A stretch of DNA of 64,000 nucleotides from Porodaedalea pini (Eukaryota; Basidiomycota; Agaricomycetes; Hymenochaetales; Hymenochaetaceae). The position numbers were made by a program, and so were the translations under genes. Where the stretch lies: positions 1 to 64,000 of the forward strand of contig NBAY01000110.1 of NCBI GenBank assembly GCA_002794775.1. Direction: 5' to 3'. A model generated the notes under the pieces. The model was not told the origin of the DNA and did no database searches. It worked only from the letters and a program-made list of their open reading frames with translations. Position 1 is the stretch's first letter; every line of letters starts with the position of its first letter. Positions 8,558 through 53,175 of this stretch are shown piece after piece.

Positions 8558-9406
8558 CAGCCATTTTCATAAGTCCTACGACACGTGCATGTCACGTGAA
8601 ATGAGCCGCGTCAGAGCCAAAGTGTCGAAGAATTAGAATGAATGCCTATTTTCTCTGTGAATTCTGCACAGTACCTGCTCATTAAGTACTCAAAAAAAAG
8701 GCACGGTTCTCAGGAGAAGAAATATGTAAAATAGGGAGCAATAAATTGATTGTGTAGGCGGGTGGAGATCAAACAAGTGCAGCTGGTCTGTTCTCTCACC
8801 CATTTCCACTGAGATTCAAAAATTATGGCTCCCCTACATCTACCTATAAAATTCTTTTCTGTATCTGTAAATTAAGTATATGACTATACCAACATCTCCT
8901 GAAAGTTTGAAGCCAATCCATTCAGTATTCATGGTCCAGCAGCAAGATTTGTGTTCTACTCTGCAAGACCTGTTGTGAGAAAAGGAGGGTGGAAAGAGCT
9001 TGAAGTGGAACACAAATCTTGCTGCTGGACCATGAATACTGAATGGATTGGCTTCAAACTTTCAGGAGATGTTGGTATAGTCATATACTTAATTTACAGA
9101 TACAGAAAAGAATTTTATAGGTAGATGTAGGGGAGCCATAATTTTTGAATCTCAGTGGAAATGGGTGAGAGAACAGACCAGCTGCACTTGTTTGATCTCC
9201 ACCCGCCTACACAATCAATTTATTGCTCCCTATTTTACATATTTCTTCTCCTGAGAACCGTGCCTTTTTTTTGAGTACTTAATGAGCAGGTACTGTGCAG
9301 AATTCACAGAGAAAATAGGCATTCATTCTAATTCTTTGACACTTTGGCTCTGACGCGGCTCATTTCACGTGACATGCACGTGTCGCAGGACTTATGAAAA
9401 AGGCTG
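8558..9406. mobile_element. Foldback element related to the 16-kb mariner-type element
   Basis: Two nearly perfect inverted arms of 399 bp (8558-8956 and 9008-9406) flank a 51-bp spacer. The ends read CAGCCATTTTCATAAG / CTTATGAAAAAGGCTG and lie between TA dinucleotides (8556-8557 and 9407-9408), the Tc1/mariner target duplication. The arm sequence and even the spacer (tgcaagacctgttgtgag) match the outer 400-450 bp of the large element at 14645-30619. This is therefore a non-autonomous derivative made from one end of that family. No coding capacity. Confidence 0.9.
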
Positions 9407-10145: not shown

Positions 10146-10414
10146 TAAGCATACTATTATAGGCTTTCCACTGTGCAGCTTAACTCCTGAGTGCCCAGCT
10201 CTAACCTTTGCTTCAGACTTATATTAAATCAACTTAGTAATAACTCTGACTCAGACACTCATAATTTAATCCTCCACTAGTATTAACAACTCTCATATTC
10301 TTCTTTCCTTGTAAGTATGACTCAGACTGCCCAGTAAGTAGATCAGACTTGACTTATATATCCAATAGCTAGCTTTTCATAAACTAAATATCTGAAACAT
10401 CTGTTACTGCTGCA

Positions 10415-10873
10415 TCTCTAGTAATTCCTGATATGTTATCTCTAGGATTTCCTAACAATAACTGCCCTGGAATTCCTAGTCAGTTATACCTAGGAATTCC
10501 CAGAGATAACTGCCCTGGAATTCCTAGTCAGTTATACCTAGGAATTCTCAGAGATAACTGCTCTGTAATTCCTAGGCATAACTGACTAGGAATTCCTGAT
10601 CAATTATGACTGGGAATTCCTAGGGCTATTCACTCAGGAATTCCTAACAATAATTTGTCAGGAATTCCCCAGTAGTTATCTCTAGGAAATCCTAGAGATA
10701 AACAATCAGCAATTCCTGATTAATTATCTCTGGGAATTCCCAGAGACAATCAACTAGGAATTCCTAACAATAATTTGTCAGGAATTCCAGAGTGGTTATC
10801 TCTAGGAAATCCTAGAGATGATCAACCAGGAATTCCTGAGTGATTATCTCTGGGAATTCCTGAGTAATTATCA
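10415..10873. repeat. Left subterminal array of GGAATTCC palindromes
   Basis: About a dozen GGAATTC cores spaced roughly 30-38 bp apart, embedded in recurring ttatctctgggaattcc, aggaattcctaacaataa and gagataactgc units. The same core unit recurs at the other end of the element (41371-41714). I infer binding sites for the transposase, as known for subterminal repeats of other DNA transposons. Confidence 0.8.
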
Positions 10874-11900: not shown

Positions 11901-14644
11901 TTATACATCGGCATAGATATCATAATTTTCATAATCATCAATAATTTCCATATCATCAGGAAGGTCTGTTTGTGGCCCCAAGGCATTTGCATGATAAGGA
12001 AGCCCAGTTGGTCGAGACAATGGATCCGTATTTGTATCAGATATGACTCGAGAGGGGTCTGTCACATATTGGACCTCTGTAACGAAGCTTGTACACTGTT
12101 GTAAAGTCACCAATGCACGGCCGGTGGTAGTCTTGATGATTGGATAGAGTCCAAGTGATGTGATTGGCTCAGAGAGTTCTATAGTGCTTGATTAAATATG
12201 GCGTGATAGGATTTGAAATCATAAGACGAACCTTTCTCTAGGTCAACAAAGCGCATCACTTTGAAGGAAGACTCGACATCACCTTTCTCAAGGGCATCCT
12301 GCTCGGCTAAAATTGGGTTGACAACTTTCTTGATTGCTTTCAGAGTCTTGAATGATTTCTGCGCAACCCTGAGGTTCATCCACAAAAATTTTGTACTGCT
12401 GTCCATGTTGGGCGCCATCTCAGAGTCAAGAATGTCGTCCAGAAAATCTATAATACCAATCTTGTTCTGCCATAAGAAAGGCAGAATTGGATCTTTGACT
12501 ATGAAAGGATGTTTCCCAGTTTTTGTGGTACCGTGATTCTTAAACAAAATAACTACAATGAATGAGAATATGTTAAATCATGATGCAGGAGTACGCACTG
12601 ATATCTTCTGTGATATATTGTGAGAATACCTTTCGGTAATCGCGTCTTTCCTCCATAGTTAGCATAAGAATAGGCCGATCTGTTTCAATGTCATTCAGCC
12701 CACGACGCTGTAAATCAACAGACCTATGACAAGCAGTTAGTTTGAAATTTGTGCATATCAGTTTCCTTTATTCAACTTGCCTGGTGCAGGTTTCCAAGTC
12801 CTTGGAAACATCCTTTGTTATGCGACTTGCAAGCTCTAGTACTTCCTGTGCAAGCTCGGTACCGGGGACGAATCCTCTGATTTTCTCAGCTTGTGCATTA
12901 CCAGATAGATTGGCCTGGAAGGCAACCCATAGTGTACGTGTTCGATGCCAATCTCGCTCTGCCTGAGAAGGCATGTTAGCAATGGAACAGAAAGAAGATA
13001 TTCAGTGAGACAAACCATCTTCATAAACTCGGACAAGCCTTGCCTGCAGATGGCCTCAAGATTTTTTGCCGTGTCGATGTCGATTTCATCGAGGGTTTTG
13101 CTGTATGCCTGAACTTCTTCGAATAGTCTCTCCCGTTCGTCGTCAGGCAAGTCAAGTGTTTTCTTATATGCATCATTCATCTCGGCTCTGTATGCATCAG
13201 GGTCATCTGTATGAACGATCATTAGTAGAAAGTATAAATTGCAAGAGAAGAATCTTACCTGTTCCTTTAGTATATGGGTGAATCTTATCCCTATAGTATT
13301 CTTTGTACTGGTTTGCAATGTTCGCACTGTGAGTTATTTTGCAGTTCACGCCGAGCCGCTCCAAGAATACCATAACATCTTTGTTTTCTTCCTTCGCAAG
13401 TGCCAGCATCTGATTGAAAAGCAAGCTAAACTTCGCCATTGCTTCTTTTGAAGGAGGTCCAGGTTTCAGCCTCTTTCAGTCGTCATTAGACTCTGGTGCA
13501 CTTGAAGAAGCATCGAACTTGCGTTTTTGTGAGCTCTTTGACATCGAGACTCAACGTTGTGTGCGAGATGATGGTGTTGCACGCCGTTTACCCTTCTTGT
13601 TTCTCCTATGAATGTTGTCTGCGTCAATTGTTTGGGACTGCATGTCTGACTCGCTCTCCGACTCCAACTCGTCATTCGGAGCTTCAAAGGCATCAGATGA
13701 ACCATCATCATTGTCGAACTCATCGTTCTCATTTTGCTCTATAATGGGTTGCTGACTGCGATGTCGAAGTGATCGAGACGTCGTTGAATGTAATGTAGGT
13801 TCTCTAGCGTCATTGTTGGATGACCCAGGAACAGCAGCGCACAGTGAGGGATCAGGGGCTGACTCGGTATTGAAGTGAGGCTCATCAGAATTTCCATTGT
13901 CGATAGCAACAGCAGTTGACTGAACAGTGGTATCTAAGCAAGTTTCAGTAAAACGGTGGATAAGAAAACAGAAACAGACTTACTCTGATGAATGCGTTCT
14001 GCTGATTGCAGTAAATCGGACCACACTTTAGGGTGAGCTTCTCTTATCTCATTGAAAGCAGTGAGAGCAGCAGTGGGTTGCGTGTCGATTTGGCCAGTAA
14101 CTGGCTGTCATACAGAAGGCAAAGCTGTTGTGACTCGAGGCGGACCTCGTACGCCTGGCCCTACAACTGCACCAGCCAAGGCGACCCTCTGGATGTTCAT
14201 TGGTAGAGTACTAGTACTTGTCGTAAGGTTCACTCTCAGTGGCAAGATGTGTTTGGGCATAAAATCTTCATTTTGGATTGTGTACGGCTGCTTTCTCGTT
14301 GTCCTCAGGCGTGAGAGATTAAAGGTATCGTTCTTCAGAGCCTCGGCACTCGGACGAACGACTGTGGATTGCTGCTGAACTTGTCATTAGGCCAGACATT
14401 TATATCACATATTTGTAGTATTGCATACCGAAATGATGAAATTTCCCTCGATATTGGTTCATGTCTCCTGTAAGCTTTCAATAGCATCTTCATGCTGATG
14501 GCCAATGCGCGAAACATCCCGCACCTAGCATTTACATGAGTTAGCTATGCAAACATAAGAAGAACTTTACTCACCTGTGGCTCTGTGGTTGGAGAATCAT
14601 TCTGACCATCATCATTTGCCATTCCATCAACAGCCGACTCATTA
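11901..14644 (-). pseudogene. 3' part of a KDZ-element passenger gene, unknown function
   Basis: I do not recognise the family. Minus-strand exons with short introns can be followed: an acidic linker near 13490-13930, then a helical part starting MAKFSLLFNQMLALAKEE (13439), a stretch with DDPDAYRAEMNDAYKKTL (about 13200), WHRTRTLWVAFQANLSGN (about 12900), FLWMNLRVAQKSFKTLKAIK (about 12380) and an acidic C-terminus DDYENYDIYADV ending at 11901. The 5' part lies at 30620-32168, because the mariner-type element is inserted in a coding exon. In-frame stops are also visible in the nearer exons (TGA near 14110; a TAG or splice ambiguity near 12180). The MAKFS methionine could instead start a separate gene. 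Confidence 0.45.
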
Positions 14645-15319
14645 CAGCCATTTTCATAAGTCCTGCGACACATGCATTTCACATGAAATGAGCCACGTCT
14701 GAGCCAAAACGTCGAAAAATAGAATAAATGTTGATTTTCTCTGTAAATTCTGCGCAGTACCTGCTCATTAAGTACTCAAAAAATAGGCATGGTTCTCAGG
14801 AGCAGAAATATGTAAAATAGGGAGCAATACATTGACTGTGTAGGTGGGTGGAGATCAAACAAGTGCAGCCAGTCTGTTCTCTCATACATTTCCACTGAGA
14901 TTCAAAAATTATGGCTCCCCTACATCTACCTATAAAATTCTTTCCCATGACTGTAAATTAAGTATATGACTATACCAACAGCTCCTGCAAGTCTGAAGCC
15001 AATCCATGCAGTATTCATGGTGCAGCAGCAAGGTTTGTGTTCCACTTTGAGCTCTTTCCACCTTCCTCTTCTCACAACAGGTCTTGCAGCATGGGCGAGA
15101 AGACCACTAAGATTATGATTCTTTTTGTGTAATTATCGGACACATAAAAGCCATCTTCCCTGCAAGTTTCCTGTCCATTCGCTTTGTGCTTCGACTGCTA
15201 CGCTCAAATTTCTGTGCATACTACCAACACCTGTGAGCACGTGAGCACGTGTTAGCCAAGCCACCGCCATGCAAACACGAAAGCCAACACTCTACTTCCT
15301 CCTCCTCTCAGGTCGTTCC

Positions 15320-16920
15320 ATGATGGTTTCAGGCAAGGCACTCTTGTTAGAACCTGAACTTTCACCTTTCCTTTATTTTCCCTTTTACCATTTCCTTTAT
15401 TATATTCGTCCTTTTCATTATATTTACCCATCTTACACAATCATTCCCACACTACCTTCATTCGTTCCATTCCCACTCGTTATGTAATGTTAGGTAATAT
15501 AGTCTCACGGTCGTCACTATATAAGGTCTCAGGAATCGCATGAACTCCTTGTTCTGCTTTTCCTCTTACCTCCGCGACGACCTAGGTGAGACTCGTCCCC
15601 CTTGTATTAGTTTAGACTTGTATTAATCCTCTTACCTCCGCGACGACCTAGCCTGAGTAAGCGTGTCCCGAGTCTACGCTCGAGTATAGCACGTCCCAGA
15701 CAACAGTCAGCCGAGGCCTGCCCAGTCCGAGTCGTCTCCCGGACTCCCGCCTAACAACTCTCAGATGATGCAAGACACATCATATTCAGACTGTATCAGT
15801 CACGACTCTTCACCGTGCATGACCTGGCCAGGGTAATAGATATCCATCAAGCAACAATCCACCGAACTGTTGCTCAACACGAGCGCATGGGGCATTTACG
15901 ACAGGAGGGCACGAGGACCGGAAGACCAAGGTTGCTTGATTATGCGGATACACAGGTGAGTGCATTTTTTGAATTGTAATGACTCGCTGCGGCTAACTGA
16001 ACTATAGTATCTCTTGAGCACGATAGAGCATCGCAAGGACCAGTACTTAGACGAGGTGAGGGAGGAGCTGGAAAGGGTAACAGGCAAGAAGGTTTCGGAC
16101 ACTACAGTATGGAGGTCTCTGCGCTGGGCTGGGTTCACTCTGAAGACGGTGCGGTGATGCTTATGGCTTCGCATCAGCAAACTTACTCTGCTCAAGATAT
16201 CGAAAAGGGCACTTGAACGCAGCGAGTCCGCTCGGCTCCGGTACACATTGAGAATGGGATCTCAATATGAGGCAGAACAGCTCGTCTTTGTCGACAAGAG
16301 TGCATGCAACCGACGTACCTTCTTGAGGAAGAAAGCATGGGCTTTGCAGGGTTATCAGGCATGTCGGAAAGTGATCTTTACACGGGGAAAAAGGTGCGAT
16401 GCTTACCTTTATGACTGCAGATCTGACTGCTTGCCTCTTCTAGGTATTTGATCTTGCCTGCAATCACTTCGACTGGCATGCTTGACTGTACAATACTGGA
16501 AGGATCCTTCAATGCCACCTCCTTCTCCGCATTTATCAGGGATCTCTTGGACCACATGCAACCTTGGCCGGCCCAAAACTCTGTCGTGGTGATGGACAAC
16601 TGCACAATCCACAAGTCACTGGAAATCTGCGAACTCATTGAGTCAAGGTCCATCTATTTTGACCTGTTGTGCTGCGACGCAGGGCTCTTACTGATCTGAC
16701 TCTGCACAGGGGCATGAAGCTGGAATTTCTCCCTGCGTATTCTCCGGACTTCAACCCGATCGAGCTGGCATTCTCTCTGCTGAAATCTCGACTTCGTCGG
16801 GTCAAATTCAGTGATGAGGAAACAGACGCTTCAGTATTCACGAAGCTTTACGGTGAAACCATGTCTATCAGTGCTGCGGACTGTCGTGCTTTCTATCATC
16901 ATTGCGGTTATCTCTGTTAG
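15320..16920 (+). pseudogene. Tc1/mariner-type DDE transposase, left copy, interrupted by a solo LTR
   Basis: The protein catalyses cut-and-paste transposition at TA. The likely start (ATGATGGTTTCAGG, 15320) is followed after seven to eight codons by the solo LTR. Beyond it come a helix-turn-helix region (FTVHDLARVIDIHQATIHR), then, across short introns (about 15956-16008, 16150-16197, 16650-16710), VFVDKSACNRRT with the first catalytic Asp, VVVMDNCTIHKS with the second and YSPDFNPIELAFS with the third acidic residue (Glu). It ends at 16920 (HHCGYLC). Order and motifs are those of the DDE_3 group. Removing the 412-bp LTR and one 5-bp duplication makes the frame continuous. As it stands, the normal start is separated from the body. 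Confidence 0.82.
15345..15756 (+). mobile_element. Solo LTR of the Ty3/gypsy family
   Basis: 412 bp from TGTTAGAACC to CCGCCTAACA, flanked by ACTCT on both sides (15340-15344 and 15757-15761). By eye it is identical to the two LTRs of the full element at 23680-29919 in opposite orientation. It contains TATATAAGG near 15520 and, about 30 bp on, GTTCTGCTTTT (15551-15561), the probable transcription start. Confidence 0.95.
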
Positions 16921-17055
16921 TGTCGGGTTTCTTCATCGAGTGGATACAGGCTTCCTTGTCACTGTCTCAACTGGTCCAACAATGTAATATATTCTGTCTA
17001 TATGATGTACGCATAACTACTGTTCCTTGATGTGAGAAACATCCTCCTGTGCATA

Positions 17056-18820
17056 TCAAACGATACGATTGAGTAACCCAATGCTTGCCTCCACTTGAGC
17101 ATCAATAACCATCTTCTCGAGCCTTCCAAATTCTAAGTAAGCCAAGTCATCCAAGCGTTTAACATCATTGGCCTCGAAAACAGGTAGCAGAGACCTGTAT
17201 TGGTAGTCATCGCGGCCTCTCTCCATGTCATCGTGCAATGATTCAATCCAATTCCGAACAGAAGGGTAATCGCGTGGCCTGCGCTCAGCTATCACCCGGT
17301 TATGCATTTCGTAGTGCTGGGCAATGACCGGCTGGTTGAAAGGTTGCATTGGCACTATAGTTGCCACTGTTCTGGCTGTCACAGGAGCACTGTTGGGGAG
17401 GGATGTTGTAGGCCCAGTTGCTATGTCAGAGCCGGTTCCTGCGCTGGCATTGTCAGCTGCTTTCCACTGCTTGTCCAATACTTTCAGTTGCCCCGGTACT
17501 TCGTCCACTTTGACTCCGGGAGTATTCTTATACTGGACAAAGTATGCTTTTAGTCCGGTGAGATTGTGCTTTGTCAATGGACTCACAATCAGTTTTGCAT
17601 GTTCAACAAGATGTTTGTTGGAATACATAAGATGGTCTTTTGACCCTCTTATTTTACCACAGAGCCTGCCATTGTGTTTATCGCATTTGAACGCTGCTGC
17701 GATTTGTGCCATAATCCGTTTGAGTGCAGCATCGTAAGCTTCCTTAGCACCGGTGACCCCTGAAGGAGTCGCATTCGTTCTAGTTGCACTTTGCTGTTTA
17801 TTGCTGTTCCCATTGTTCCCACGTGTATTCTTCACTGCATGTCAGGAACCACTTTATACATCAAATACTATAGACGAACCTGATTACTGAGATTCCGAAT
17901 GACAATTCCGGGGTTTTCGTTACCTCGTTTCTTCTTCTTTTCAGCTGCTTGATGCCTGTGAACTCGTTTGAACAGCGCGTCCAACTGGTCTTGTGTATCC
18001 AAATATTCTGGTTCGAGCTTTGTCCCAGACTTCACAGACCAGCAAGCTGTGTAACCAAGTTGGTCGAATGTAGAACGGCCCCGGGTGATTGAAACCGCTT
18101 CATTGATCAAATCAGCCAGCGACATCTTGGAGTTGATCTTCATGTCTCGCACGCCAGTACCGTCATGAATTTTTACCATGACTTCCAGTTCGGGCTTTTT
18201 CTCTGCAGCAGGTGTCGATGTGATCCATCCATAAGCTTTTGCATGTCCAAGGGAGGGAGTATTCCAGTCCACATACTCGCCAGCTATACTTTTCTTAGCC
18301 ACAGCCTTAGGCAACAATGAATGGAGGTTTCGTACCATCATCAAGATGGAAAGAACGCTCATCAGGCTTGTCAGGGGAGTCAGGAATTTCATCGAAGGCC
18401 GATCTGTCATCATCAAAACCCTGCGTTTCATTCATAGTGTCGTTCAAGCCAAGTCCTGAAGCCCGAACGACGTCCGCAATGGATATATCCCCCTGATCTT
18501 CAGGCGAATGCTCCTGTTCAACTGTATCCTTGTCATTGCCCTTCTTGCGTGGCTATGGGCATGAAAACCGGTCAGAGAGAGCATTTGCATCAAATTTCAC
18601 AACTCACAGTTCGGCGGGTCGGCTTTGCTGTTGTAGCATATTTCTTCCCACTCGATTTCGACTGCTTTTTTGCAGGAGTTTTGGGGACCTGATTGGGGAC
18701 TTCATTTTTCCTGGGGCGACCAACAGGGTGTTTCTTCATCTGCACAGCTAATTCCGCAGCTAGTTCTTCGCCGTCTTTGAGTTTTTTGGACTTCTTTCTG
18801 ACACGTTGAGGCGGCATCAT
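17056..18820 (-). CDS. Cargo gene 1: AT-hook / PB1-like / SAM-like protein, unknown function
   Basis: A spliced minus gene of at least four exons. Exon 1 (18590-18820) encodes a very basic N-terminus with an AT-hook-like core, HPVGRPRKN, suggesting nuclear DNA contact. The next exons are acidic (DDRSAFDEIPDSPD), then a compact domain with KISWP-less PB1-like features (ELEVMVKIHDGTGVRDMKI, then ACWSVKSGTKLEPEYLDTQ) and a basic HQAAEKKKKRG patch. The last exon (17056-17835) is hydrophilic and ends in a short helical domain (RDYPSVRNWIESLHDDMERG to LNRIV) resembling SAM-like folds seen in many Agaricomycete proteins of unknown role. The stop codon (17056-17058) lies inside the palindrome arm, so the original 3' end may have been lost. 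Domain labels are inference. Confidence 0.55.
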
Positions 18821-19197
18821 AGGGTCAGGAAAAGAAACGCAATTCGATTTCGCTTAGAGCATCGGATATTTTTGCTTACCGAATATTTTGGTACCTAAGC
18901 CTCCTGAAAGATGTCGGCGACCTCTACCTCCTTCATGACTATTGCTTTCATGCCGACTGAGCCATTGTGGACCAAGGTTGAAGGTAGGGAACTGGCTATC
19001 CCAATGCGGCAAGAATACAAAAGGAGGGTTCAGGGCATCAAAATGCACCGGTCTCATCTTTATCTCTCGTCCTTCTCCTCCCATCCCCATCAGTCTTGCT
19101 CTCCCGCCTCATCGCTCACCCCTATAAGTACCCATTGCTACGGAAGGACAAGCTGGACGGCATCCTATGGATCCTTCCAGTGACATAGTCATGGTTA

Positions 19198-21946
19198 ATG
19201 GTACGGAATAGATCGCCACGTTCTAAGTCTTTGGTGGCTTACAAACAGGCATTTTGTGTAGCACCCAGTGAAGTTCATGATCATGAAGACACCATGGAAG
19301 ACTCTGAGCAGTTGCAAGAGGTGCTATCTGGTAAGCATATGTCTTCCCTGGTAAGTTCCATGGGCCCTTCTGACGTGACGTCAGATGAAGTTTCTTCTGA
19401 AGGACCTGCAGAGAATGATTCAAAAGGAAAGGGAAAGGAAGTGGCTCGAGAGCGTTCAGGGGAGGAATCTAGTCATAGTAGCCGTAAGTACTATTTATAC
19501 AATTGCTGCGGGATCGTCCTGATGCATCTGTGCACTATTTTTCAGCGTCCGAAAGTGCAGCGCTAAAGAAGCAGCTCATTCAAGCGAAGGCATCACAGTC
19601 CTATGACAAAGTTGTGGTAATTGTGGAGGCAGCTGTTGCTAAGCATGGTCAGATTGAGGAAAAGTCAAAGCGGCATAAAAAACGTCTTCATGCCAGAAAA
19701 AATTATGATTCTCTCTTGGCTAGGATAACCCAACTCGAGTCACAAATCCACACAAGCGAGGCCACCGTGCTTTGAACTGTTCAAGATGTTGCTGCAGCCG
19801 ATGAGGCACGTTCTTCGGAGGCCCAGGTCGGCCTTCTTTTTGTCACGGATCGGGTTAATATGTTGGAGGAGAAAAATGAACAAAGCGAAATCAATGTGCG
19901 TCGAGTAGAAGATGAAATATGTGGTGTACTTAGTCTTCATACGGATGCTATTCTCGGGGTAAAGCTCCTTCTCTAGTATCACTCTACTTGATTCTCACAT
20001 TCTGATTTAGGAGCCTGAAGCGGCGGATAAGTTGCGCCTTCGAAAATTAATCGAGGAAGGAAAGATTATACTCCTTACGGGATTCAGTGTTGCGGAGCGT
20101 GTCCTGCAGATTCGCTACTGCTCGGGAAACACTTCAAATAATGAGGATGTCTGCAAGCCTAAAAGGATTCATTATTTCATCCCGATCGACCACCCTCGTA
20201 TTCAGGAAAACACAGTGTGTGACCCGTGGACATACGAACGGGTCTTGAGGGACCTTGTGCAGTGCGCTCAAACCCCAAAGGCAGGCCCTGGCGTGCCCTT
20301 CGAGGCATTCAAATCAATCGCCAATATAACGGAAAACCACGCATTCGATCTCGGGCAACTCTATCCGAAGTACGACAGAGAGAAGGTAATCCAAAACTTG
20401 CACGACTTGTTAGCTGCTTTTATGCGTGCTCATGAATGGCCAAGTTTCTGGGAGATGAACGCTTCGCTTTCCTTTGTTGTGAGGGTGGAACAGGCAGGAT
20501 ATGGAGATTGCAAACCTTTCTGCGACCGGGCCCAATACAACGATGCGGACACCCTTGTTCTGGCGGAAGTTATTAGGAGCAGACTTCCGCAGGCATCCGA
20601 GAAATCCACAGAGCTAAAGGGAAACCCGAGACTATGAGCAAAATCGAGAGTTTCACGGGCCACGAAGCGATGTGGATTTTCAATCAGTATCAGCAAAAGT
20701 CTAAAAAGAGTTGGCCTAAAAGAGGCTCTGCTCACTACTCCACGCACTCTTCCCAACTCTCCGACGTGGGCTCTACCCCTTGCGATACTGTATTGGGCAC
20801 GCAATTTGATTTGAAAAAGAGACTTACGCGCGATTCTGTCAACCGAATCGCATATGTACTTCGTCTTGCCTTCAGACAACGAAAAGAGGATGTGGATATC
20901 TTGTTTAGCGCTTCCCCGATACCACAACTGGAGGGACCGGAAAAATATGATTTTAAGTCGGCCAATAGTCGAATGAGAGAATATGCCGGTCTTGTTGTGG
21001 ATCCTTGTAATGAAGCAAGCTTGTCGTACGAAGAACTGGACGCCCGAGTACTTCTCGCAGAGGCCAGTGCGCCAGCGGGCAGTGTGAAGCACTCGCTATG
21101 CAGGAATTACAGGAATCTTAGGGTGTATATGCCTTTCATCAAGGACCTGTCTGCGCTATCGGCAGCTCTCAAGCTCTTGGAGGATGGAATTGCCAACATT
21201 CTATTGCGGGAAGATGCCTATGACTCACTCGTAGTTGCGTTACACGGAGGTGCCCATGATATGTCCGAGCCTGTGGAATCTTACGAAGCTGCAATAAAGG
21301 CATTGGAGGAGCGTGGCGTTTCGCAGGGGCAGTTTAAGGAGTGTGCTCCACATTTCAGAGCGATTTTGGCCGTCCAGCAGGGAATCAACATGCATAACAG
21401 TATCCCGACGGACCTATAAGCGTAGGGTTCCCCCTTCCACATGTGGACAATGCGGTGCGATCCAGTGAACGGGAATCCAGTGCATTGCAATCCTATCCGT
21501 CATCATCTGCAAAATCATTTCGCAAGCATCCCGCTGACGATCATGCCCTTACGACGAGGCCAGAGAAAAAAAAGAATCAATCGGATTACCCGCATGACGA
21601 AGGCCCCTCTAATTCGAAAGGAGGCATGGCTCGTGGAGACACGTCCCCGCCATCCCCCCTCACTTCGTCCTCGCTCCAGCCAGGCCCCTCTAATTTGTTT
21701 AATGCCGGAAGGGGAGGCACGGCTCATGGAAACACATCCCGGTCCCTCCTCACTTCGTCCTCGTCCCGGCCACCTCCCCCCGCTGACTGGCATCAGACTT
21801 ACAAGAACTACAGAAGAGAGGGTGGAAGAGAGGGTAGAAGCGACCAGAAACGGAGACACGACTACCACTCCGGAAGAGAGGATAGAGACTACCAGAGACG
21901 GGAATACAGCTACTCCAGAAGAGGGGGTAGACGTGGACATCACTGA
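19198..21946 (+). pseudogene. Cargo gene 2: coiled-coil protein with Arg-rich tail, probably broken
   Basis: Not a family I know. Divergent from cargo gene 1. Exon 1 (MVRNRSPRSKSLVAYKQ) is followed by an acidic/Ser segment, an intron (about 19483-19544), a strong coiled coil (SAALKKQLIQAKASQSYDK onward) and, after an in-frame TGA (19772-19774), more coil. An intron (about 19959-20011) leads to a compact region (IHYFIPIDHPRIQENTVC). At 20634 the frame changes by one (TGA of the first frame overlaps ATG of the next), and the second half (20634-21419, to IPTDL) continues. Another frame carries a Pro/Ser- then Arg/Tyr/His-rich tail (RREYSYSRRGGRRGHH) ending at 21946, RNA- or nucleic-acid-binding in character. 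One stop and one frame break suggest decay, although splicing could remove some. Confidence 0.45.
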
Positions 21947-22374
21947 GAGAGTTCCGGAAGAGTTGCTCTGACATCACGACGATGACCTCGAGGCGTCCAA
22001 GGTGGTCACTGGAGCAGCGGTAATGAGGAGGGACTCAAGCGTGGATCAAATCGGTCTGAACAATCAGACACATGCTCTCGCATAGCCTCAAATCCTTTTG
22101 TCTACTATTTCCTTTTGTATTCCTCCTACTAAGTCTTCTTTCATACAGAAATACCAGGGTTTTGTATGATTAGTTGTGTAGAATGTACATTTTATTTATT
22201 CAATGATTGAAGTTTACTGCTAGAAAGTGACCATGATGATGGAGTGCGTGATGTTCCGCACCGCTCAACTCATTGTCCATCGCTACGATAGCCTTTGGGC
22301 ATGGCAAGACTGCATATGGTCCAAGAGCGAAGGATGCAGAGGTCGAGACAAGTCTTGCATTACTCACTCACACT
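21947..22374. other. Spacer between cargo gene 2 and the right arm
   Basis: Probable 3' UTR and AT-rich spacer; no gene recognised. Confidence 0.4.
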
Positions 22375-23679
22375 GTTTGATATGCGCAGGAGGATGTTTC
22401 TCACATCAAGGAACAGTAGTTATGCGTACATCATATAGACAGAATATATTACATTGTTGGACCAGTTGAGACAGTGACAAGGAAGCCTGTATCCACTCGA
22501 TGAAGAAACCCGACACTAACAGAGATAACCGCAATGATGATAGAAAGCACGACAGTCCGCAGCACTGATAGACATGGTTTCACCGTAAAGCTTCGTGAAT
22601 ACTGAAGCGTCTGTTTCCTCATCACTGAATTTGACCCGACGAAGTCGAGATTTCAGCAGAGAGAATGCCAGCTCGATCGGGTTGAAGTCCGGAGAATACG
22701 CAGGGAGAAATTCCAGCTTCATGCCCCTGTGCAGAGTCAGATCAGTAAGAGCCCTGCGTCGCAGCACAACAGGTCAAAATAGATGGACCTTGACTCAATG
22801 AGTTCGCAGATTTCCAGTGACTTGTGGATTGTGCAGTTGTCCATCACCACGACAGAGTTTTGGGCCGGCCAAGGTTGCATGTGGTCCAAGAGATCCCTGA
22901 TAAATGCGGAGAAGGAGGTGGCATTGAAGGATCCTTCCAGTATTGTACAGTCAAGCATGCCAGTCGAAGTGATTGCAGGCAAGATCAAATACCTAGAAGA
23001 GGCAAGCAGTCAGATCTGCAGTCATAAAGGTAAGCATCGCACCTTTTTCCCCGTGTAAAGATCACTTTCCGACATGCCTGATAACCCTGCAAAGCCCATG
23101 CTTTCTTCCTCAAGAAGGTACGTCGGTTGCATGCACTCTTGTCGACAAAGACGAGCTGTTCTGCCTCATATTGAGATCCCATTCTCAATGTGTACCGGAG
23201 CCGAGCGGACTCGCTGCGTTCAAGTGCCCTTTTCGATATCTTGAGCAGAGTAAGTTTGCTGATGCGAAGCCATAAGCATCACCGCACCGTCTTCAGAGTG
23301 AACCCAGCCCAGCGCAGAGACCTCCATACTGTAGTGTCCGAAACCTTCTTGCCTGTTACCCTTTCCAGCTCCTCCCTCACCTCGTCTAAGTACTGGTCCT
23401 TGCGATGCTCTATCGTGCTCAAGAGATACTATAGTTCAGTTAGCCGCAGCGAGTCATTACAATTCAAAAAATGCACTCACCTGTGTATCCGCATAATCAA
23501 GCAACCTTGGTCTTCTGGTCCTCGTGCCCTCCTGTCGTAAATGCCCCATGCGCTCGTGTTGAGCAACAGTTCGGTGGATTGTTGCTTGATGGATATCTAT
23601 TACCCTGGCCAGGTCATGCACGGTGAAGAGTCGTGACTGATACAGTCTGAATATGATGTGTCTTGCATCATCTGAGAGT

Positions 23680-24091
23680 TGTTAGGCGGGAGTCCGGGAG
23701 ACGACTCGGACTGGGCAGGCCTCGGCTGACTGTTGTCTGGGACGTGCTATACTCGAGCGTAGACTCGGGACACGCTTACTCAGGCTAGGTCGTCGCGGAG
23801 GTAAGAGGATTAATACAAGTCTAAACTAATACAAGGGGGACGAGTCTCACCTAGGTCGTCGCGGAGGTAAGAGGAAAAGCAGAACAAGGAGTTCATGCGA
23901 TTCCTGAGACCTTATATAGTGACGACCGTGAGACTATATTACCTAACATTACATAACGAGTGGGAATGGAACGAATGAAGGTAGTGTGGGAATGATTGTG
24001 TAAGATGGGTAAATATAATGAAAAGGACGAATATAATAAAGGAAATGGTAAAAGGGAAAATAAAGGAAAGGTGAAAGTTCAGGTTCTAACA
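23680..24091 (-). repeat. 3' LTR of the gypsy element
   Basis: 412 bp, TGTTAG...CTAACA, identical by eye to 29508-29919. The pol stop codon (24092-24094) directly abuts its inner edge. Confidence 0.95.
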
Positions 24092-27000
24092 TTACCCCCC
24101 CTTCAAGGTTGGGCGTCCCGACCAACCATGATCGCGGTCGTCAGGCTCGGTGTCGACGAAGAGCGGACGGAGTCGTTGACGAGGGATGTCGAGTTTCCGA
24201 GGTGCACCGGGATGTTTGAGGTAGAACTCAGCGATCGCCTCCCTCGCGTTCTCGCCGAAGTCCGTCTCGGGCTGCCAAGTAGGTTCATTGTAGCCGACCC
24301 ACTTGACAAGGTACTGTAGTTTCCCTCGGTGCAGACGTGAGTCTAAGACTTCCTCGAGTTCGTATTCCTCCTCGTCGTCGACGATGTCTGGCGGCGGCGG
24401 CGGCGGTTGCTTCTGGCTTTCAAAGGACGGTTCGACGGCGGGTTTCAACAGGGCTTCGTTGAAGACAGGGTGGACCTTTTTCCATCGCTTCGGGAGTTTG
24501 AGCTTGTACGCGCTCGCTCCTACCTTGTCGACGATGTCAAAGGGGCCGTACCATTTATCTGCGAGTTTCTTCGTCGGCGAGTCCGTACTGATGTTTCGCC
24601 CGTCAAGGAAGACTTTGTCTCCAGCCTTGTACTCCACCGAAGCTCCTGCTGTCCGGTCATGGTAGCGCTTCATGTCCTCTGCTGCCTTGACTAGATTGTC
24701 CTTAGCAACGCGATGAGTCTCCTTGATGTGCTTGGCGAATTCTTCCGCCGACATGTTGGCAGAGGAAGTTCGTACGGTGTCGAAGCTTATAGGGTGACGT
24801 CCGGTGTTTGCGTAGAAGGGTGACATCCTTGTCGCTGAATGTTCGCGGTTGTTGTAGGCGAACTCTGCGAGGGGGAGCCAGTCCTTCCAGTCCGATTGCC
24901 GATGATCGACGAAGAGCCGGAGGTACTGTTCAAGCTCTTGATTGACGCGTTCCGTCTGACCGTCCGTTTGTGGGTGGTATGCCGTTGACGGGTTGCCTTC
25001 GATGTGTAGGAGTTTGTATAGCTCCTTCATCATCGACGCATCGAACTGTGTGCCTCGGTCGTGGATGATCTTCTTCGGTAGGCCATGGAGGCGGAAGATG
25101 TGGTCTCGGTATAACTGAGCCATGCCTTCCGCTGACAGTTTCGTCGTCGTCGGGATGGCATGCATCTGTTTTGAGAATCTGTCCACGAAGACGCAGATTG
25201 CATTGTGTCCCTTAGAGTCCGGGAGTTCTCCGATTAGGTCGACCGTGACGATCTCCCAGGGACCTTCAGGGATCGCGTTAGGATGAAGCGGTCTCGACCT
25301 CGACGTTCTTAAGGCTTTCGTTCGTTGGCAACGGTTGCATCCTCGGACGTATGTTCGGACATCGGAGAACATTGACGCCCACCAGAAGTCTGGACGTACC
25401 AGTTCGACCGTCTTCGACGATCCAGGATGTCCTGCCAGGGTCGAGTCGTGGTACTCCCGCAATACCGCTTCCTTCATCGTCGACGGCACGTACACCTTGC
25501 CTTTCATCCGCCACAACCCATCGACCTTCACCATATTCGTCGGCCTCTCCGACTCGTCTTGCGCTCTCTGCGCCTCACCCACTCGTTCCAACATTTCATC
25601 ACGCGACGTCCTTACCACCCCACGGTTCAGCCATTTCTCCTTGATGAACACGACGCCGTCATTGTCATCCTTGCCCTGATCATAGCCCGCCTTGCGTGAC
25701 AGCAAGTCGGCCTTGCCCATCGTCTTCCCCGACTTGTGTTCGAGGTGGAAGTCGAATTCCTCGAGTTCGGTTCGCCAGCGAGCTTGACGATAGCTCAGCT
25801 TCTGCGCTGACCTGAAGTAGGTGAGGTTGGCGTGGTCGGACCAGATTTCAATTTTGTGGCGAGCGCCAAGGAGGTATTGCCGCCACTCCTTGAGCGCCGA
25901 AACGATCGCGAGCATCTCCTTGTCGTAGATCTCGTAGTTTCGTTCCGCCGGTTCAAGTGCCTCTGACCTGTAGGCGATCACCCTCCACTTCCCTTCCTGC
26001 TTCTGCAACAACACACCACCGAGCGCAAAGTTCGACGAGTCCGCCTCTACGCGGAAAGGGCCCTCGTCATTGGCGATGGCTAGGACTGGAGGTGAGCAGA
26101 GACGTCGTCTCAGCTCCTCGAACGCTTCCTGCTGTTCGGTCTCCCATACCCAGTCCTTCTTGCCCGTTAACGACGTCAACGGTCGGACCACCTTACTGTA
26201 GTCCTTAATAAACCGTCTCAGCCAGTTTCCCATGCCGAGGAACTGTTGCAGCTCCTTGAGGTTCCGTGGGACTGGCCAGTTCGCAATCGCCTCCGTCTTT
26301 GCCGGGTCAGCCCTGATCTCTCCATTGCTGATGATGTGGCCGAGGTATTTGACGACCTTGGCGTCAAACTCGCACTTCTCCGGCTTTAGGTACAGGCCAT
26401 TCTCTCGGAGGATCTGGAGTACGCGCCTCGACGTGTCGATATGCTCCTCAATGGTTTCCGAGAGGATCAGGATGTCGTCGAGGTATACGATGATCAAGTT
26501 CGCGTAGATTAGGTCCTTAAAGATGTGGTTGACAAAGGCCTGGAACGTGGCCGGCGCGTTGCAAAGGCCAAAAAACATGACCGTCGGTTCGAAGAGGCCC
26601 ATGTTCGTGCGAAACGCTGCTTTCCATTCGTCACCCTCGCGGATCCGGATATTGTAGTACCCCCAGCGAAGGTCAAGCTTAGTGATGTATTTCGCTTTCT
26701 TGACCTTGTCGACGAGTTCGTCAATGAGAGGGAGGGGATACTTGTTCTTGATCGTACCGTCATTGAGCTTACGGTAATCCTGGATGGGGCGTAGCGATTT
26801 GTCGGCCTTCTTAATGAAGAAGAAGGGCGACGCCATGGGCGATATCGATCGTCGAATGCGACCCGACTTCAGGTTTTCATCAAGGAAGTCCTTGAGTGAC
26901 TGCTGCTCAGTCGGCATGAGCGGGTAGATCTTACAGTCGCTCGGTTTGAAGTCGGGCTTCAAGTCGATGACATGGTCCCAGGGTCGGTGTTCCGGCAGTT

Positions 27001-27586
27001 TCTCGAAACCTTTTTCGCTGAAAACGTCGGCGTAGTCGTTGAGGTATGCGGGCCAGGACGTCTTGTCCATTCGCATCTCACTCACCCTCCTCATTTGCTC
27101 CACCACCTTCTTCACCTCGCCTAGGTCCTCCACCGGCTCCCTCTCGATCGCACATTCTTCCGGACAGCGGGTGAATTCGATCGAGCCCGTTTTCCAGTTG
27201 ACCTCCGGATTGTGACGTCGAAGCCAGTCGTACCCCAGGAAGATGTTTGATGACGCTAGGGACGTTACTGCGAGGACGATTTTCTCCCGATGACGGCCGA
27301 TCATGAGTTCGACGTCAACGTACTCCTCGATCAATCCGGCCTCATTGTGCGTGCCATCGGCGTTCAGCACCGCGAGGGGTCGAATGTAGCGTTTCGTTTC
27401 CAACCCGTACCTCTCGACGAACCTGACGTCGATGCAGGATCCCGTGCATCCCGAATCCACAAGGGCATGCGCATCTACCTCTCTCGCCTCACCAGCTATT
27501 TCATGCTCGACGGTCAGGAGAAGGTCCAGCTGGCGTCCGCCAGTTCCTCTCATGAACAGTTGTTCGTATTCTTCATTCTTGTTCAC
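24092..27586 (-). CDS. pol: Ty3/gypsy Pol polyprotein (PR-RT-RH-INT-chromodomain)
   Basis: 1,164 codons without a stop. Domains in order: aspartic protease (LVDSGCTGSCID, about residues 42-53); reverse transcriptase with YLDDILILS (about 365-373); RNase H (FALGGVLLQKQEGKW to ADLLSR); integrase with an HHCC zinc finger (YHDSTLAGHPGSSKT, CNRCQRTK) and the DDE core (TVDLIGELPDSKG, HDRGTQFDAS, AYHPQTDGQTERVNQELEQY); and a chromodomain near the C-terminus (YLVKWVGYNEPTWQPE), which in chromoviruses guides integration to modified histones. The frame is also open upstream of 27586 and overlaps the end of gag in a different frame, so expression probably needs ribosomal frameshifting near 27718-27730. 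All key catalytic residues are present. Confidence 0.95.
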   Translation of the reverse strand: MNKNEEYEQLFMRGTGGRQLDLLLTVEHEIAGEAREVDAHALVDSGCTGSCIDVRFVERYGLETKRYIRPLAVLNADGTHNEAGLIEEYVDVELMIGRHREKIVLAVTSLASSNIFLGYDWLRRHNPEVNWKTGSIEFTRCPEECAIEREPVEDLGEVKKVVEQMRRVSEMRMDKTSWPAYLNDYADVFSEKGFEKLPEHRPWDHVIDLKPDFKPSDCKIYPLMPTEQQSLKDFLDENLKSGRIRRSISPMASPFFFIKKADKSLRPIQDYRKLNDGTIKNKYPLPLIDELVDKVKKAKYITKLDLRWGYYNIRIREGDEWKAAFRTNMGLFEPTVMFFGLCNAPATFQAFVNHIFKDLIYANLIIVYLDDILILSETIEEHIDTSRRVLQILRENGLYLKPEKCEFDAKVVKYLGHIISNGEIRADPAKTEAIANWPVPRNLKELQQFLGMGNWLRRFIKDYSKVVRPLTSLTGKKDWVWETEQQEAFEELRRRLCSPPVLAIANDEGPFRVEADSSNFALGGVLLQKQEGKWRVIAYRSEALEPAERNYEIYDKEMLAIVSALKEWRQYLLGARHKIEIWSDHANLTYFRSAQKLSYRQARWRTELEEFDFHLEHKSGKTMGKADLLSRKAGYDQGKDDNDGVVFIKEKWLNRGVVRTSRDEMLERVGEAQRAQDESERPTNMVKVDGLWRMKGKVYVPSTMKEAVLREYHDSTLAGHPGSSKTVELVRPDFWWASMFSDVRTYVRGCNRCQRTKALRTSRSRPLHPNAIPEGPWEIVTVDLIGELPDSKGHNAICVFVDRFSKQMHAIPTTTKLSAEGMAQLYRDHIFRLHGLPKKIIHDRGTQFDASMMKELYKLLHIEGNPSTAYHPQTDGQTERVNQELEQYLRLFVDHRQSDWKDWLPLAEFAYNNREHSATRMSPFYANTGRHPISFDTVRTSSANMSAEEFAKHIKETHRVAKDNLVKAAEDMKRYHDRTAGASVEYKAGDKVFLDGRNISTDSPTKKLADKWYGPFDIVDKVGASAYKLKLPKRWKKVHPVFNEALLKPAVEPSFESQKQPPPPPPDIVDDEEEYELEEVLDSRLHRGKLQYLVKWVGYNEPTWQPETDFGENAREAIAEFYLKHPGAPRKLDIPRQRLRPLFVDTEPDDRDHGWSGRPTLKGG

Positions 27587-27717
27587 ACCGGTGGAGACTT
27601 CGTAATCGGGAAAACCATCGACGTTGTTCGCATCTACGTATTGTACAAACGGTTGGTTATATTTTAGCGGATCCGGATTCGAAGTCTCTTGTTCTTCTCG
27701 GTCAGTCGCCCCGATGG

Positions 27718-28797
27718 CTACGCCTGACCATTCGCAAAACCCTGCGAGTCGACGACCTCTTCGTTATCGCCTTCTTCCTCCACATAGTCCTCCACCGTCG
27801 ACCTCCGAGTGTCTACGACTTCCTCGAAGGCCGACTCCTTCATCGCTCCGAGCTCGTCGGCAAGGACACGACGTTCGCCTGGCGCCATCAGTTCCAGCAT
27901 GCGCTGGATGATCGGTTTCGCCTGTGGGCACTTGTCTTTAAAGTGGCCCAGCCCACCACAGATCCAGCACGCACGTCGTCGTTGTGCCTCGTTCATCGAG
28001 ACGTCCATCGGTTGACCAGCGCCTCCAAAGGTGACGCCGGTCGCATCGCGTCTGTCGACGTGTGGGGCCGCTACCTGACGGCGAGCTGGGGGCGCTTGTT
28101 GTGGTAGGCGAGGAGGGGGAAGAAAGGCGCGTCCTCATTGGATAGCGCGAATCTGCTGTTCGCCGCGGTCTATTTCAATCGCCTTGTTCTTCCAATCCTC
28201 GTATTTCGTTGGGACTGGTGTCGACCTTAGCACTCCACGGACCACCTCGATGTTCATCGCCCGCTTGAGGCGATCGCAGATGACGCTGTCGTCTTTCAAC
28301 TCGGCGCGCTTAATTATCACGTCGAACTTCTGGAAGAACTCGTCCGCGGTTAGGTCCTTCTGAACCTTATCTCGGAAATCCTTCAGCGCTTTCTCCTTGC
28401 GATTCGGGTCGTCGAACGAGGCGTCGAGTCGTTCCTGGAATCTTTCCCAGCTGTCGGTGAAGGTGACGATCCCTGACGTTGTCGACTCCTCGACGTAGTT
28501 TTGCGCCCACGTTGCCGCATTACCACCCTTCAGGTAGGAGAGAGCTACATAAATCTTACTCTCTGACGTAGGGTATCGACTTGGATTTGCGGATACAAAA
28601 AGGAGGACTTCACGTCTGAAGTCGAGGTAATCGTCGCCACCAGTGAATTCTCGTGGCCGGGCGACATCTATGTTGGGGGTCGGGGGGTTAGCGGCCGCGA
28701 CCGGTGCTGGGGCGTTGTTCGCCTGATGGGCGAAGGCATTCGCAACGATGGCCGCGATCTGCGCCATTTGCTGTTGGCTGAAACCTTCTGCTGACAT
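27718..28797 (-). pseudogene. gag: Gag of the gypsy element, with an internal TGA
   Basis: The first 220 codons (28797-28135) encode a helical capsid-type region (REFTGGDDYLDFRREVLLFV, ATWAQNYVEES, FQERLDASFDDPNRKEKALK). An in-frame TGA (28135-28137) follows AIQ. The same frame then resumes and contains a perfect CX2CX4HX4C zinc knuckle, CWICGGLGHFKDKC, before stopping at 27718. The reading frame is continuous across the TGA, so one C-to-T change (CGA to TGA) would explain it. Gag made from this copy would lack its RNA-binding part unless the stop is read through. Confidence 0.88.
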
Positions 28798-29495
28798 CGC
28801 GGGTTCGGGTGCGGGTGTCGAAGGTTCTGGAGGAGTCGGCGGTGAGGGGTCTCTGTTGGTTTCGCGGTAAGGACCTGGGGTCGGTGGTAGGTTGACCGTA
28901 GACGTTGACAGTGCAGGTGACGACGGAGCGGCTGGGGGCCACCTTGCTCTCCTCCCTCGTTCGTCTGATGAATACCAGCTGCGCCGGATTTCACTCCACC
29001 AGATGTCGTGAGTGACGCCGCTATTATTGGTCGCGACGTAGCCTGGTCGGTCTGGATCCCAACGGGCTGAAGCAGGAAGGGCCCGTTGCTGTTCGTCGGT
29101 GAGATCTATCTTGACGTTGGCGGAGGGATAGGGATCGGTTGCGCGTTCGATCCGGGGTTACGCCAACGTTGAGCGGGTTCGTCAGCGAAGTTGATGACGA
29201 GGCGGTAGGATCCGAGTGAGATTACAAACGAGATTGTCGTCGAAGTTTGGACTCGTCTTGTTACCCACGTCCACGTTAGGTGCGTGCTCCACCAGAGGCT
29301 AATTCATAGAGCCAGGGTCGGAAAATGTCGGTTGATATATTTACGTAATACACGAACGTCCGAAAACGTCCGGGCAGGGTTGAGGGTTGTCGTTTAGGGG
29401 GTTTACACGTCAAGTCCGTCGAGGGGAACGCTCCTCTAGACCGAGTGAAGGCGAGTCGACAGCGACGACTTACGCTGGGGATGAGCCTGGGTGAG

Positions 29496-29506
29496 GTTCT
29501 GCTTTT
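29496..29506 (-). promoter_or_regulatory. Self-complementary primer binding site
   Basis: One base inside the 5' LTR, the minus strand reads AAAAGCAGAAC. This is the exact complement of GTTCTGCTTTT within the LTR (29703-29713), about 30 bp after the TATATA box, that is, the expected first 11 bases of the transcript. Self-priming from the RNA 5' end with an 11-base pairing is the mechanism known from fission yeast Tf1 and related chromoviruses. Confidence 0.75.
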
Positions 29507-29507
29507 A

Positions 29508-29919
29508 TGTTAGGCGGGAGTCCGGGAGACGACTCGGACTGGGCAGGCCTCGGCTGACTGTTGTCTGGGACGTGCTATACTCGAGCGTAGACTCGGGACA
29601 CGCTTACTCAGGCTAGGTCGTCGCGGAGGTAAGAGGATTAATACAAGTCTAAACTAATACAAGGGGGACGAGTCTCACCTAGGTCGTCGCGGAGGTAAGA
29701 GGAAAAGCAGAACAAGGAGTTCATGCGATTCCTGAGACCTTATATAGTGACGACCGTGAGACTATATTACCTAACATTACATAACGAGTGGGAATGGAAC
29801 GAATGAAGGTAGTGTGGGAATGATTGTGTAAGATGGGTAAATATAATGAAAAGGACGAATATAATAAAGGAAATGGTAAAAGGGAAAATAAAGGAAAGGT
29901 GAAAGTTCAGGTTCTAACA
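29508..29919 (-). repeat. 5' LTR of the gypsy element
   Basis: 412 bp with TATATA (29741-29746) and the start-site motif at 29703-29713; flanked outside by AGAGT. Identical by eye to the 3' LTR and the solo LTR at 15345-15756. Confidence 0.95.
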
Positions 29920-30619
29920 AGAGTGCCTTGCCTGAAACCATCATGGAACGACCTGAGAGGAGGAGGAAGTAGAGTGTTGGCTTTCGTGTTTGCATGGCGG
30001 TGGCTTGGCTAACACGTGCTCACGTGCTCACAGGTGTTGGTAGTATGCACAGAAATTTGAGCGTAGCAGTCGAAGCACAAAGCGAATGGACAGGAAACTT
30101 GCAGGGAAGATGGCTTTTATGTGTCCGATAATTACACAAAAAGAATCATAATCTTAGTGGTCTTCTCGCCCATGCTGCAAGACCTGTTGTGAGAAGAGGA
30201 AGGTGGAAAGAGCTCAAAGTGGAACACAAACCTTGCTGCTGCACCATGAATACTGCATGGATTGGCTTCAGACTTGCAGGAGCTGTTGGTATAGTCATAT
30301 ACTTAATTTACAGTCATGGGAAAGAATTTTATAGGTAGATGTAGGGGAGCCATAATTTTTGAATCTCAGTGGAAATGTATGAGAGAACAGACTGGCTGCA
30401 CTTGTTTGATCTCCACCCACCTACACAGTCAATGTATTGCTCCCTATTTTACATATTTCTGCTCCTGAGAACCATGCCTATTTTTTGAGTACTTAATGAG
30501 CAGGTACTGCGCAGAATTTACAGAGAAAATCAACATTTATTCTATTTTTCGACGTTTTGGCTCAGACGTGGCTCATTTCATGTGAAATGCATGTGTCGCA
30601 GGACTTATGAAAATGGCTG

Positions 30620-41082: not shown

Positions 41083-41370
41083 ACAATTGAAATGATGTAA
41101 ACTTCAAATGCATAGACAACACCAGAGCTTTGCTATTTCACATCTTAACAATGATACTTCACACTTATGGAGCCTATCAGACAAAATAAAGTCAACTTGC
41201 AGTTTTAGATTGACTCAATGTCAAATCAGTATTTTTTGTCACCTTCCGTTCAGAGATCAAAATAAATATAACCCAGCATGAGACATGCTGTACTTATAAT
41301 TACTTGATGACTTTAAAGTTGCATAATGGAATACAGGCAAAGTTCAAGTGTTTTCTTTTGCTATTTTCTT

Positions 41371-41714
41371 AGGTATTCTTACATATGTTATCTTGGGAAT
41401 TCCTGCATATGTTATCTCAGGAATTTCTGCATATGTTATCTCAGGAATTCCTGTATACATTATCTTGGAATTCTTGCATATATTATCTCAGGAATTCCTA
41501 CATATGTTATCTCAGGAATTCCCACATATGTTATCTTGGGAATTCCTGCATATATTATCTTGGAATTCCTGTATACATTATCTTGGGAATTCCTGCATAT
41601 GTTATCTCAGGAATTCCTGTATACATTATCTTGGAATTCTTGCATATATTATCTCAGGAATTCCTGCATACATTATCTTGGGAATTCCTACATATATTAT
41701 CTCAGGGATTCCCC
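41371..41714. repeat. Right subterminal array of GGAATTCC palindromes
   Basis: About a dozen units, mostly 26-27 bp, of the form ttatctcaggaattcctgcatatg, alternating with ttatcttgggaattcc. The core ttatct(c/t)nggaattcc is shared with the left array at 10415-10873. The regular unit keeps all three frames open and yields repetitive hydrophobic translations that are not genes. Confidence 0.82.
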
Positions 41715-51958: not shown

Positions 51959-53175
51959 ATAAGACTGTGATGAGCAGCCATCTCTTCTCGTTATGCGTGA
52001 GGTGGTGGAGGAGCTGTACACCAGAGCTAAAATGTTATTCATCATATAAGTATATAGTTTTACACTGTATAAGAAGTTTCGCAACCTGGGGTACGAGTGT
52101 GGTTGGCTCAAAAGCCCGAGCTTATCAGCCTCAAATTAATTTAGATCCTCGTTTTAAAAATACTAAACAAATGTTATTGGACTGGTATAGATATTAAGTT
52201 AAGTATATCCAAATTTTGCACTTTATGGACGGCTAACTATGTATGCAAAAAATGCGGCATTGTTCTACTCGTGAAAGTCTCTACTTGGAAGCAAGTGTAT
52301 TATTCCTCTACCTGGGTATGCAGCAGACCTCTGAAGACCTGTGTACGTCATCTACTTCCACTGGTCCTGTAAAACAATAAATTCAGTCTCGTGTGGTATA
52401 AGACTCTTCTGTATTGTAAGTACCTGTAAAACAATAAACTACATGATAACGGTAAGGTACTGGTAAAAGAATCAAAGTAAAAGAAATGCTCACCTCAGTC
52501 TCGTGTGGTATAAGACTGAGGTGGCAACGAGACGAACATTTGGACTATATGCTACGACGATCCATTACTAAACTAAGCGACGTCGATCACTACTCTCAAC
52601 AGGTCCATAACGCCAGAATAAATGGTAACGCACGCTGTCGATGGAAAAAGCTTGAACATATTTTCAATTGCTATGTATGTGTCTTGCATGTTGGCTTCCG
52701 AAGTTTCATTATTTGCTCACGACTTTGTTCATGTCTCTGTAGAGGACAAGCGAAGTCAATATCAATGCCCAGATAATAGATATTGTATCACCAAGCATAG
52801 CTAGCCTTATAAATGAGATTTATCTCGGGTACATCCCTCAGAAGCTATATCTACTCTTGGCTGAACCCACGAAACAAAAAGAATCTTTGTCCGTCGATAA
52901 ATAAACATATCACTTCGCAGCTGCTACTACCATCGTTAACATGAAACCTGCCACGAGCGCGCACAAAATTTCCCAGGACTTGCGGTCAGTTCGCTATTTG
53001 AAACGAGATTTCTACAGTTTACTCCCTGAATCAAAACCTGATCAGCTGAATCGATTATCTGTGCGTTCGGATTTTACCATTGTACCTTGGTGCGAAAGCG
53101 ACTCAAAAGGATACACTGATTGTATCGTCAGACTTGAAACAGCATAGAAGTAAAGTGCACTCACCTATGAGGATG
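51959..53175. other. Intergenic, small direct repeat
   Basis: Contains two copies of cagtctcgtgtggtataaga (52384 and 52497) and a repeated cctgtaaaacaataaa. No gene recognised. Confidence 0.45.

Follow-up and report, generated by a model that had tools for sequence, protein, structure and literature searches.

Comparison With Described Elements

Tc1/mariner elements are usually 1–3 kb in length and carry one transposase gene, which is the usual but not an essential state. Among the relatives of Tc1/mariner elements, the Tec and TBE elements of ciliates carry several genes between or within long inverted repeats, and long terminal inverted repeats also occur in Foldback/Galileo and Mu-type elements, whereby the repeats within an element are more alike than expected. 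Here, we analyzed a stretch of 64,000 nucleotides from Porodaedalea pini (GenBank assembly GCA_002794775.1, contig NBAY01000110.1, positions 1 to 64,000; hereafter the window, its contig being abbreviated as C110) and an element located in it at 14645–30619. This element very probably represents a Tc1/mariner-type family that carries a whole transposase gene inside each of its 2-kb terminal inverted repeats (arms) and two accessory genes between them, with the arms being homogenised most likely by conversion in place.

The element resembles Tc1-like (DD34E) members of the Tc1/mariner group in its DDE_3 transposase, the 34 residues before the E, the TA duplication, and the inverted terminal repeats. 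It differs from them in its length of 9.3 kb (retroelement sequence set aside), in having a transposase in each inverted repeat and thus two per copy, in its two further genes, and in its preference for TTAA. We know of no Tc1/mariner lineage with a transposase in both repeats. Tec and TBE elements have one transposase each, are not known to carry it in both repeats, and have extra genes of other kinds, whereas Foldback/Galileo and Mu-type elements belong to other transposase superfamilies and their repeats are not known to contain a whole transposase gene each. Given their great length, the inverted arms described here can fold back on each other, so that the term foldback applies to them as the name of a shape, not of a family. 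Bacterial composite transposons such as Tn5 and Tn10 likewise consist of two inverted transposase-bearing arms around other genes, but each of their arms is a complete insertion sequence with an inner and an outer end, whereas here no inner end was found and the genes are fixed. The large fungal transposons, KDZ elements and Starships, are also big and have several conserved genes, but use other transposases or recombinases; neither a KDZ transposase with its partners nor a tyrosine recombinase captain was matched by Pfam in the transposase, in gene 1, or in the long exon of gene 2.

Structure of the Element in the Window

The element has the following parts (LTR, long terminal repeat):

14645..30619, no strand: whole element, 15,975 bp including retroelement sequence, defined by end mapping and by comparison with family members
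14643–14644 and 30620–30621: TA duplicate, in TTA/TAA context on both sides of the element
14645..17061, plus strand: left arm, the 2,000-bp terminal inverted repeat plus 417 bp (solo LTR with 5-bp target duplication)
15269..16920, plus strand: left transposase gene, five exons, DDE_3, modelled from copy C148 and Pfam; the solo LTR interrupts exon 1 at about codon 25
15345..15756, no strand: solo LTR, 412 bp, identical to both gypsy LTRs of the other arm, target duplication ACTCT
17017..18817, minus strand: gene 1, 529-amino-acid model (from copy C148), five exons, with its 3' end extending into the left arm
19198..21946, plus strand: gene 2, model of about 893 amino acids, three exons, Arg/Ser-rich tail with 45-bp repeats
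22375..30619, minus strand: right arm, the 2,000-bp repeat in inverted orientation, with a full Ty3/gypsy element inside
22516..29995, minus strand: right transposase gene, identical model; the gypsy element interrupts exon 1 at about codon 25
23680..29919, minus strand: Ty3/gypsy element with reverse transcriptase, RNase H, integrase, and chromodomain, its position mirroring that of the solo LTR

The element ends are CAGCCATTTTCATAAGTCC in inverted orientation and are flanked by tta and taa (tta-CAGCC...GGCTG-taa). The arm coordinates were derived by hand from alignments. Identity between the two arms is 100% in the outer 1,115 aligned bases and 99.09% in an inner alignment of 1,759 bases, and all three LTRs of the window copy are identical and lie at mirrored arm positions. 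An arm length of exactly 2,000 bp is given by the fixed or nearly fixed left/right differences, which start at base 2,001 in the 13 full copies described below. A first-pass annotation of the window had proposed a palindromic Tc1/mariner-type element at these coordinates with TA-flanked ends, two inverted arms of 2,000 bp after subtraction of retroelement sequence, a DDE transposase in each arm, and a 5.3-kb centre with two divergent genes. The ends, the arm length, and the centre (modelled here as gene 1 and gene 2) were borne out by the comparison; as to the transposases, each arm does hold a five-exon gene, but in the window copy both are disrupted by the LTR or the gypsy element and neither is intact.

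The Arm-Genes-Arm Layout in the Genome

In order to place the window copy within its family, we compared it to the genome assembly, which comprises 53.3 Mb in 201 contigs. A DNA search with the outer part of the arm yielded at least 48 matches among the best 40 of 2,280 candidates scored. From these loci 14 complete copies were fetched, of which 13 were aligned in full and one (C35) was handled separately because of its inserts. All 13 full-length copies have the same ends, the same gene order, and the arm-genes-arm layout; the first-pass annotation had proposed to look for such further copies in related genomes. A protein search with one transposase exon gave 135 matches, 98 of which form 49 convergent pairs less than 45 kb apart (30 of the window's family and 19 of relatives at 56–70% identity). 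Neighbouring matches of the same group within 45 kb were convergent (plus, then minus) in 49 cases, divergent in four, both on the minus strand in three, and both on the plus strand in none, and this convergent excess excludes a chance arrangement. The bit scores of both members are equal in 31 of the 49 pairs. A few pairs span 25–41 kb and could be mis-joined.

Each of the 49 convergent pairs encloses a gene-1 homologue, and this holds across three diverged families; 13 of the 65 gene-1 matches lie outside pairs. With a family-1 or family-2 query, the second gene was found in 47 of the 49 pairs and is divergent from gene 1 in all 47, whereas neither query detected a second gene in the two family-3 pairs. 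The third family, 53% identical to family 2, was split off by a second transposase query and comprises the pairs C150:15234/26976 and C4:1454922/1460386. A family-2 copy (C100:22124-30786) is 8,663 bp long and has 2,233-bp arms with three differences, ends CTGCCCC..., and flanks TTA/TAA. In a second, rearranged family-2 copy (C141) the arms are 99.3% alike, although this copy and C100 share about 88% identity.

As a control, the genome was searched with the Pfam DDE_3 domain. Among the best 150 of 304 candidates about 25 other transposase loci were counted by eye; only those at C64:138240/168409 could form a convergent pair at less than 45 kb. The other DDE_3 transposases of this genome are thus mostly single. 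Three relatives of the transposase exon at 57–85% identity (C71:16477, C24:37598, and C19:403691) have no partner within 45 kb and are possible single-transposase relatives. At C28:89643-108691, two half-elements of the window's family lie back to back, about 11 kb apart. On contig C105, element pieces at 15692–21977 and 92126–95151 meet at the same internal base, 70 kb apart and in swapped order, which could reflect either a rearrangement or an assembly join.

Insertion Target and Empty Sites

In the fetched sequence, TA borders every one of the 45 distinct ends, as part of TTA in 42 cases and of CTA in three. The comparison with empty sites, proposed for other strains in the first-pass annotation, was possible within the same genome for two copies (C148 and C12), and both sites indicate insertion into TTAA with duplication of TA. 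One of them lies in the window itself:

52180..52240, plus strand: empty site for the C148 copy, with intact TTAA, sequence GATATTAAGTTAAG

At the C148 locus a second palindromic insertion occupies an adjacent TTAA. The C12 copy (L022/L023) is nested: it sits in a terminal repeat belonging to a relative, and other copies of that relative, with TTAA uninterrupted, provide the empty-site control. A reading with no duplication and one extra base at each element end gives identical letters.

Transposase and Accessory Genes

The transposase gene of each arm points inward and encodes 340 amino acids in five exons. The DDE_3 domain (PF13358) was recognized by Pfam at residues 165–308 with an E value of 1e-30. 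Several helix-turn-helix families match the N-terminus, with HTH_33 and HTH_Tnp_Tc3_2 just or clearly below the cut-offs, and the D-D spacing and the 34 residues before the E were counted by hand on the protein model. Searches with the transposase found nothing in the PDB at an E value of 0.1 and, in IMG/VR, two pattern matches but no relative.

Gene 1 (minus strand) and gene 2 (plus strand) diverge from the shared middle of the centre. Gene 1 contains a GRPRK motif that, judged by eye, resembles an AT-hook, and has one in-frame stop in the window copy; gene 2 of this copy has one stop as well as gaps. The 45-bp repeat of gene 2 is expanded in the C12 copy. Neither gene gave a Pfam match above the cut-offs. 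Gene 1 had a single match in the PDB (E value 0.96) and only one weak match in IMG/VR, located in a stretch now modelled largely as an intron, and gene 2 had no match in IMG/VR. A single-sequence AlphaFold model of a gene-1 exon, with a mean predicted local distance difference test (pLDDT) score of 45.5, was not taken forward to a fold search. Any function of gene 1 and gene 2 in the element is one that we infer.

Between families 1 and 2, gene 1 is homologous (40% and 35% identity over two exons). The proportions of differences at silent sites (pS) and at amino-acid-changing sites (pN) were 0.79 and 0.20 over 67 codons for the transposase and 0.88 and 0.38 over 142 codons for gene 1, the silent sites being saturated in both cases. 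These values clearly point to purifying selection on the transposase and gene 1 between the two families. As gene 1 is present in every pair of the three families and appears to be under purifying selection between two of them, and the second gene is divergent wherever it was found, gene 1 and the second gene look like core accessory genes and not like changing cargo. Among the copies of the window's family, frames free of stops and gaps, with inserts set aside, were found for the transposase in both arms of C148, C26, and the window copy, for gene 1 in C28 and C12, and for gene 2 in C46 and C26.

Concerted Evolution of the Arms

The two arms of one copy differ at 0 to 22 of the 2,000 bases, with two copies at 0, whereas different copies diverge by about 2.3% in the arms and by 3.4% in the centre. 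In a phylogenetic tree the two arms of the same copy are sisters in all 13 copies, with a support of 97–100 for 12 of them and no printed value for C148, and a tree grouping all left arms and all right arms was rejected (p-AU 1e-72). The raw nearest neighbour gave the same arm-sister pattern in 12 of the 13 copies, the exception being C39. Of the alleles private to a single copy, 62 are shared by its two arms and 20 are confined to one arm. The arms of a copy evolve in a concerted manner; the most likely cause is gene conversion in place, from one inverted arm to the other.

Insertions into the arms agree with this picture. Among the 14 copies two such insertions were seen, in the window copy and in C35, and both are mirrored, with the same 5-bp target duplication in both arms. 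In C35, at a different site from that in the window, the left arm holds a gypsy element and the right arm a solo LTR, which is 100% and 99.8% identical to the LTRs of that gypsy element. Other copies contain five long insertions, every one of them in the centre. The left/right differences cluster at the arm edges: of 80 in total, 15 fall within the outer 70 bp and 10 within the inner 15 bp. This exceeds the expectation from diversity (p 2e-4 and 2e-5, respectively) and is the pattern that would result from conversion tracts becoming rarer where homology ends.

The arms of the 13 copies also show a strong excess of C-to-T and G-to-A changes (fitted kappa 73), a pattern typical of mutation that targets repeats or is driven by methylation.

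Explanations for the Palindromic Layout

On the favoured explanation, a Tc1/mariner-type family with a whole transposase gene in each arm, the transposase would bind the outer ends, excise the element, and insert it at TTAA with duplication of TA, i.e., by cut-and-paste. Arm-to-arm conversion would keep the two transposase genes alike but would also spread damage. A single gypsy insertion in the window copy would have come to lie in both arms and broken both transposases, after which one side was reduced to a solo LTR. The ends, the target, the TA duplication, the copy number, and the fixed gene order are read directly from the assembly; several points, however, weigh against this explanation. 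The mechanism is deduced from sequence and transposition itself was not observed. The gene models were built by hand and without transcripts, and by these models none of the 13 copies has all genes open together. Copies of the window's family show weak constraint when compared with one another (shared pN/pS 0.47–0.62, with stops), 37 of the 135 transposase matches are unpaired, and the second genes of families 1 and 2 share no significant similarity, so that their homology was not detected. Furthermore, the arm edge regions are also more variable between copies, and part of the edge signal is thus mutation.

The homogeneity of the arms could also arise if they were made identical once per transposition, through copying of the element, and diverged afterwards. 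The 0 to 22 arm differences fit insertion ages, and a mirrored gypsy could also stem from a gypsy-bearing copy that had moved. However, the transposase is interrupted by a gypsy insertion mirrored within a single copy in two cases, with identical or nearly identical LTRs, and differences cluster at the arm edges. Both observations point to copying in place, which makes this course of events unlikely. A parallel C-to-T mutator resembling repeat-induced point mutation, striking the same sites in both arms, would be in line with the prevalence of C-to-T or G-to-A changes (50 of the 62 shared-private and 13 of the 20 one-arm changes). Yet the other types of change are also more often shared (12 shared-private versus seven one-arm), and a mutator cannot account for mirrored gypsy insertions with the same target duplication; we regard it as very improbable.

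The first-pass annotation had likened the element to a composite transposon built from mariner sequences that may serve to capture and move genes. Such a composite would consist of two independent, inverted mariner elements with captured DNA between them. Inverted transposase copies do flank non-transposase genes, but a search for inner ends with up to four edits found no end-like match inside the element except one weak, chance-like match at 4158. The composite reading fails since no sequence like the outer end was found at the inner arm edge or elsewhere in the element and the internal genes are constant instead of being swapped; gene 1 is of the same kind in every pair and the layout is common to the three diverged families. 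Capture by two independent elements therefore has very little probability, and the proposed capture of genes is not supported. Long inverted repeats are hard to assemble and our analysis rests on an assembly without reads, so an assembler might have duplicated one arm. This is extremely unlikely, as the pairs are spread over many contigs, the 13 full copies have intact TA flanks, and the contents of the arms differ in the window copy and C35 (full gypsy versus solo LTR).

Beyond the homogenised double-transposase layout as such, the palindrome itself might be an adaptation of a whole Tc1/mariner lineage, in which arm-to-arm conversion lets one transposase gene serve as template for mending its twin, while movement or upkeep of the structure would require the accessory proteins; this is possible but rather doubtful. 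Should the layout be as ancient as its presence in three families suggests, it would constitute a stable duplicate carriage of an enzyme whose copies are kept alike, as in the palindromes of the Y chromosome. The 49 pairs in one genome offer replicate palindromes in which arm-to-arm conversion can be measured for its rate, its tract length, and its side effects, including cases where conversion appears to have spread a disabling insertion.

Short Derivatives and Repeats in the Window

A short palindrome of the same family lies outside the element:

8558..9406, no strand: short non-autonomous palindrome, 849 bp, near-perfect, sharing about 90% identity with the outermost 449 bp of the arm, flanks TTA/TAA

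A further palindrome at 62284–63360 (1,077 bp, arms 93.6% alike) has the ends CTGCCC...GGGCAG in TTA/TAA, resembling those of family 2, and by these ends it would be a short family-2 derivative. Inserted beside the C148 element is a copy with 97% identity to this palindrome. The window also contains two related tandem-repeat blocks at 10413–10872 and 41362–41713, as well as dispersed direct repeats at 55998–56961 and 61671–62204, one of which adjoins an 87% relative of the gypsy LTR at 56161–56585.

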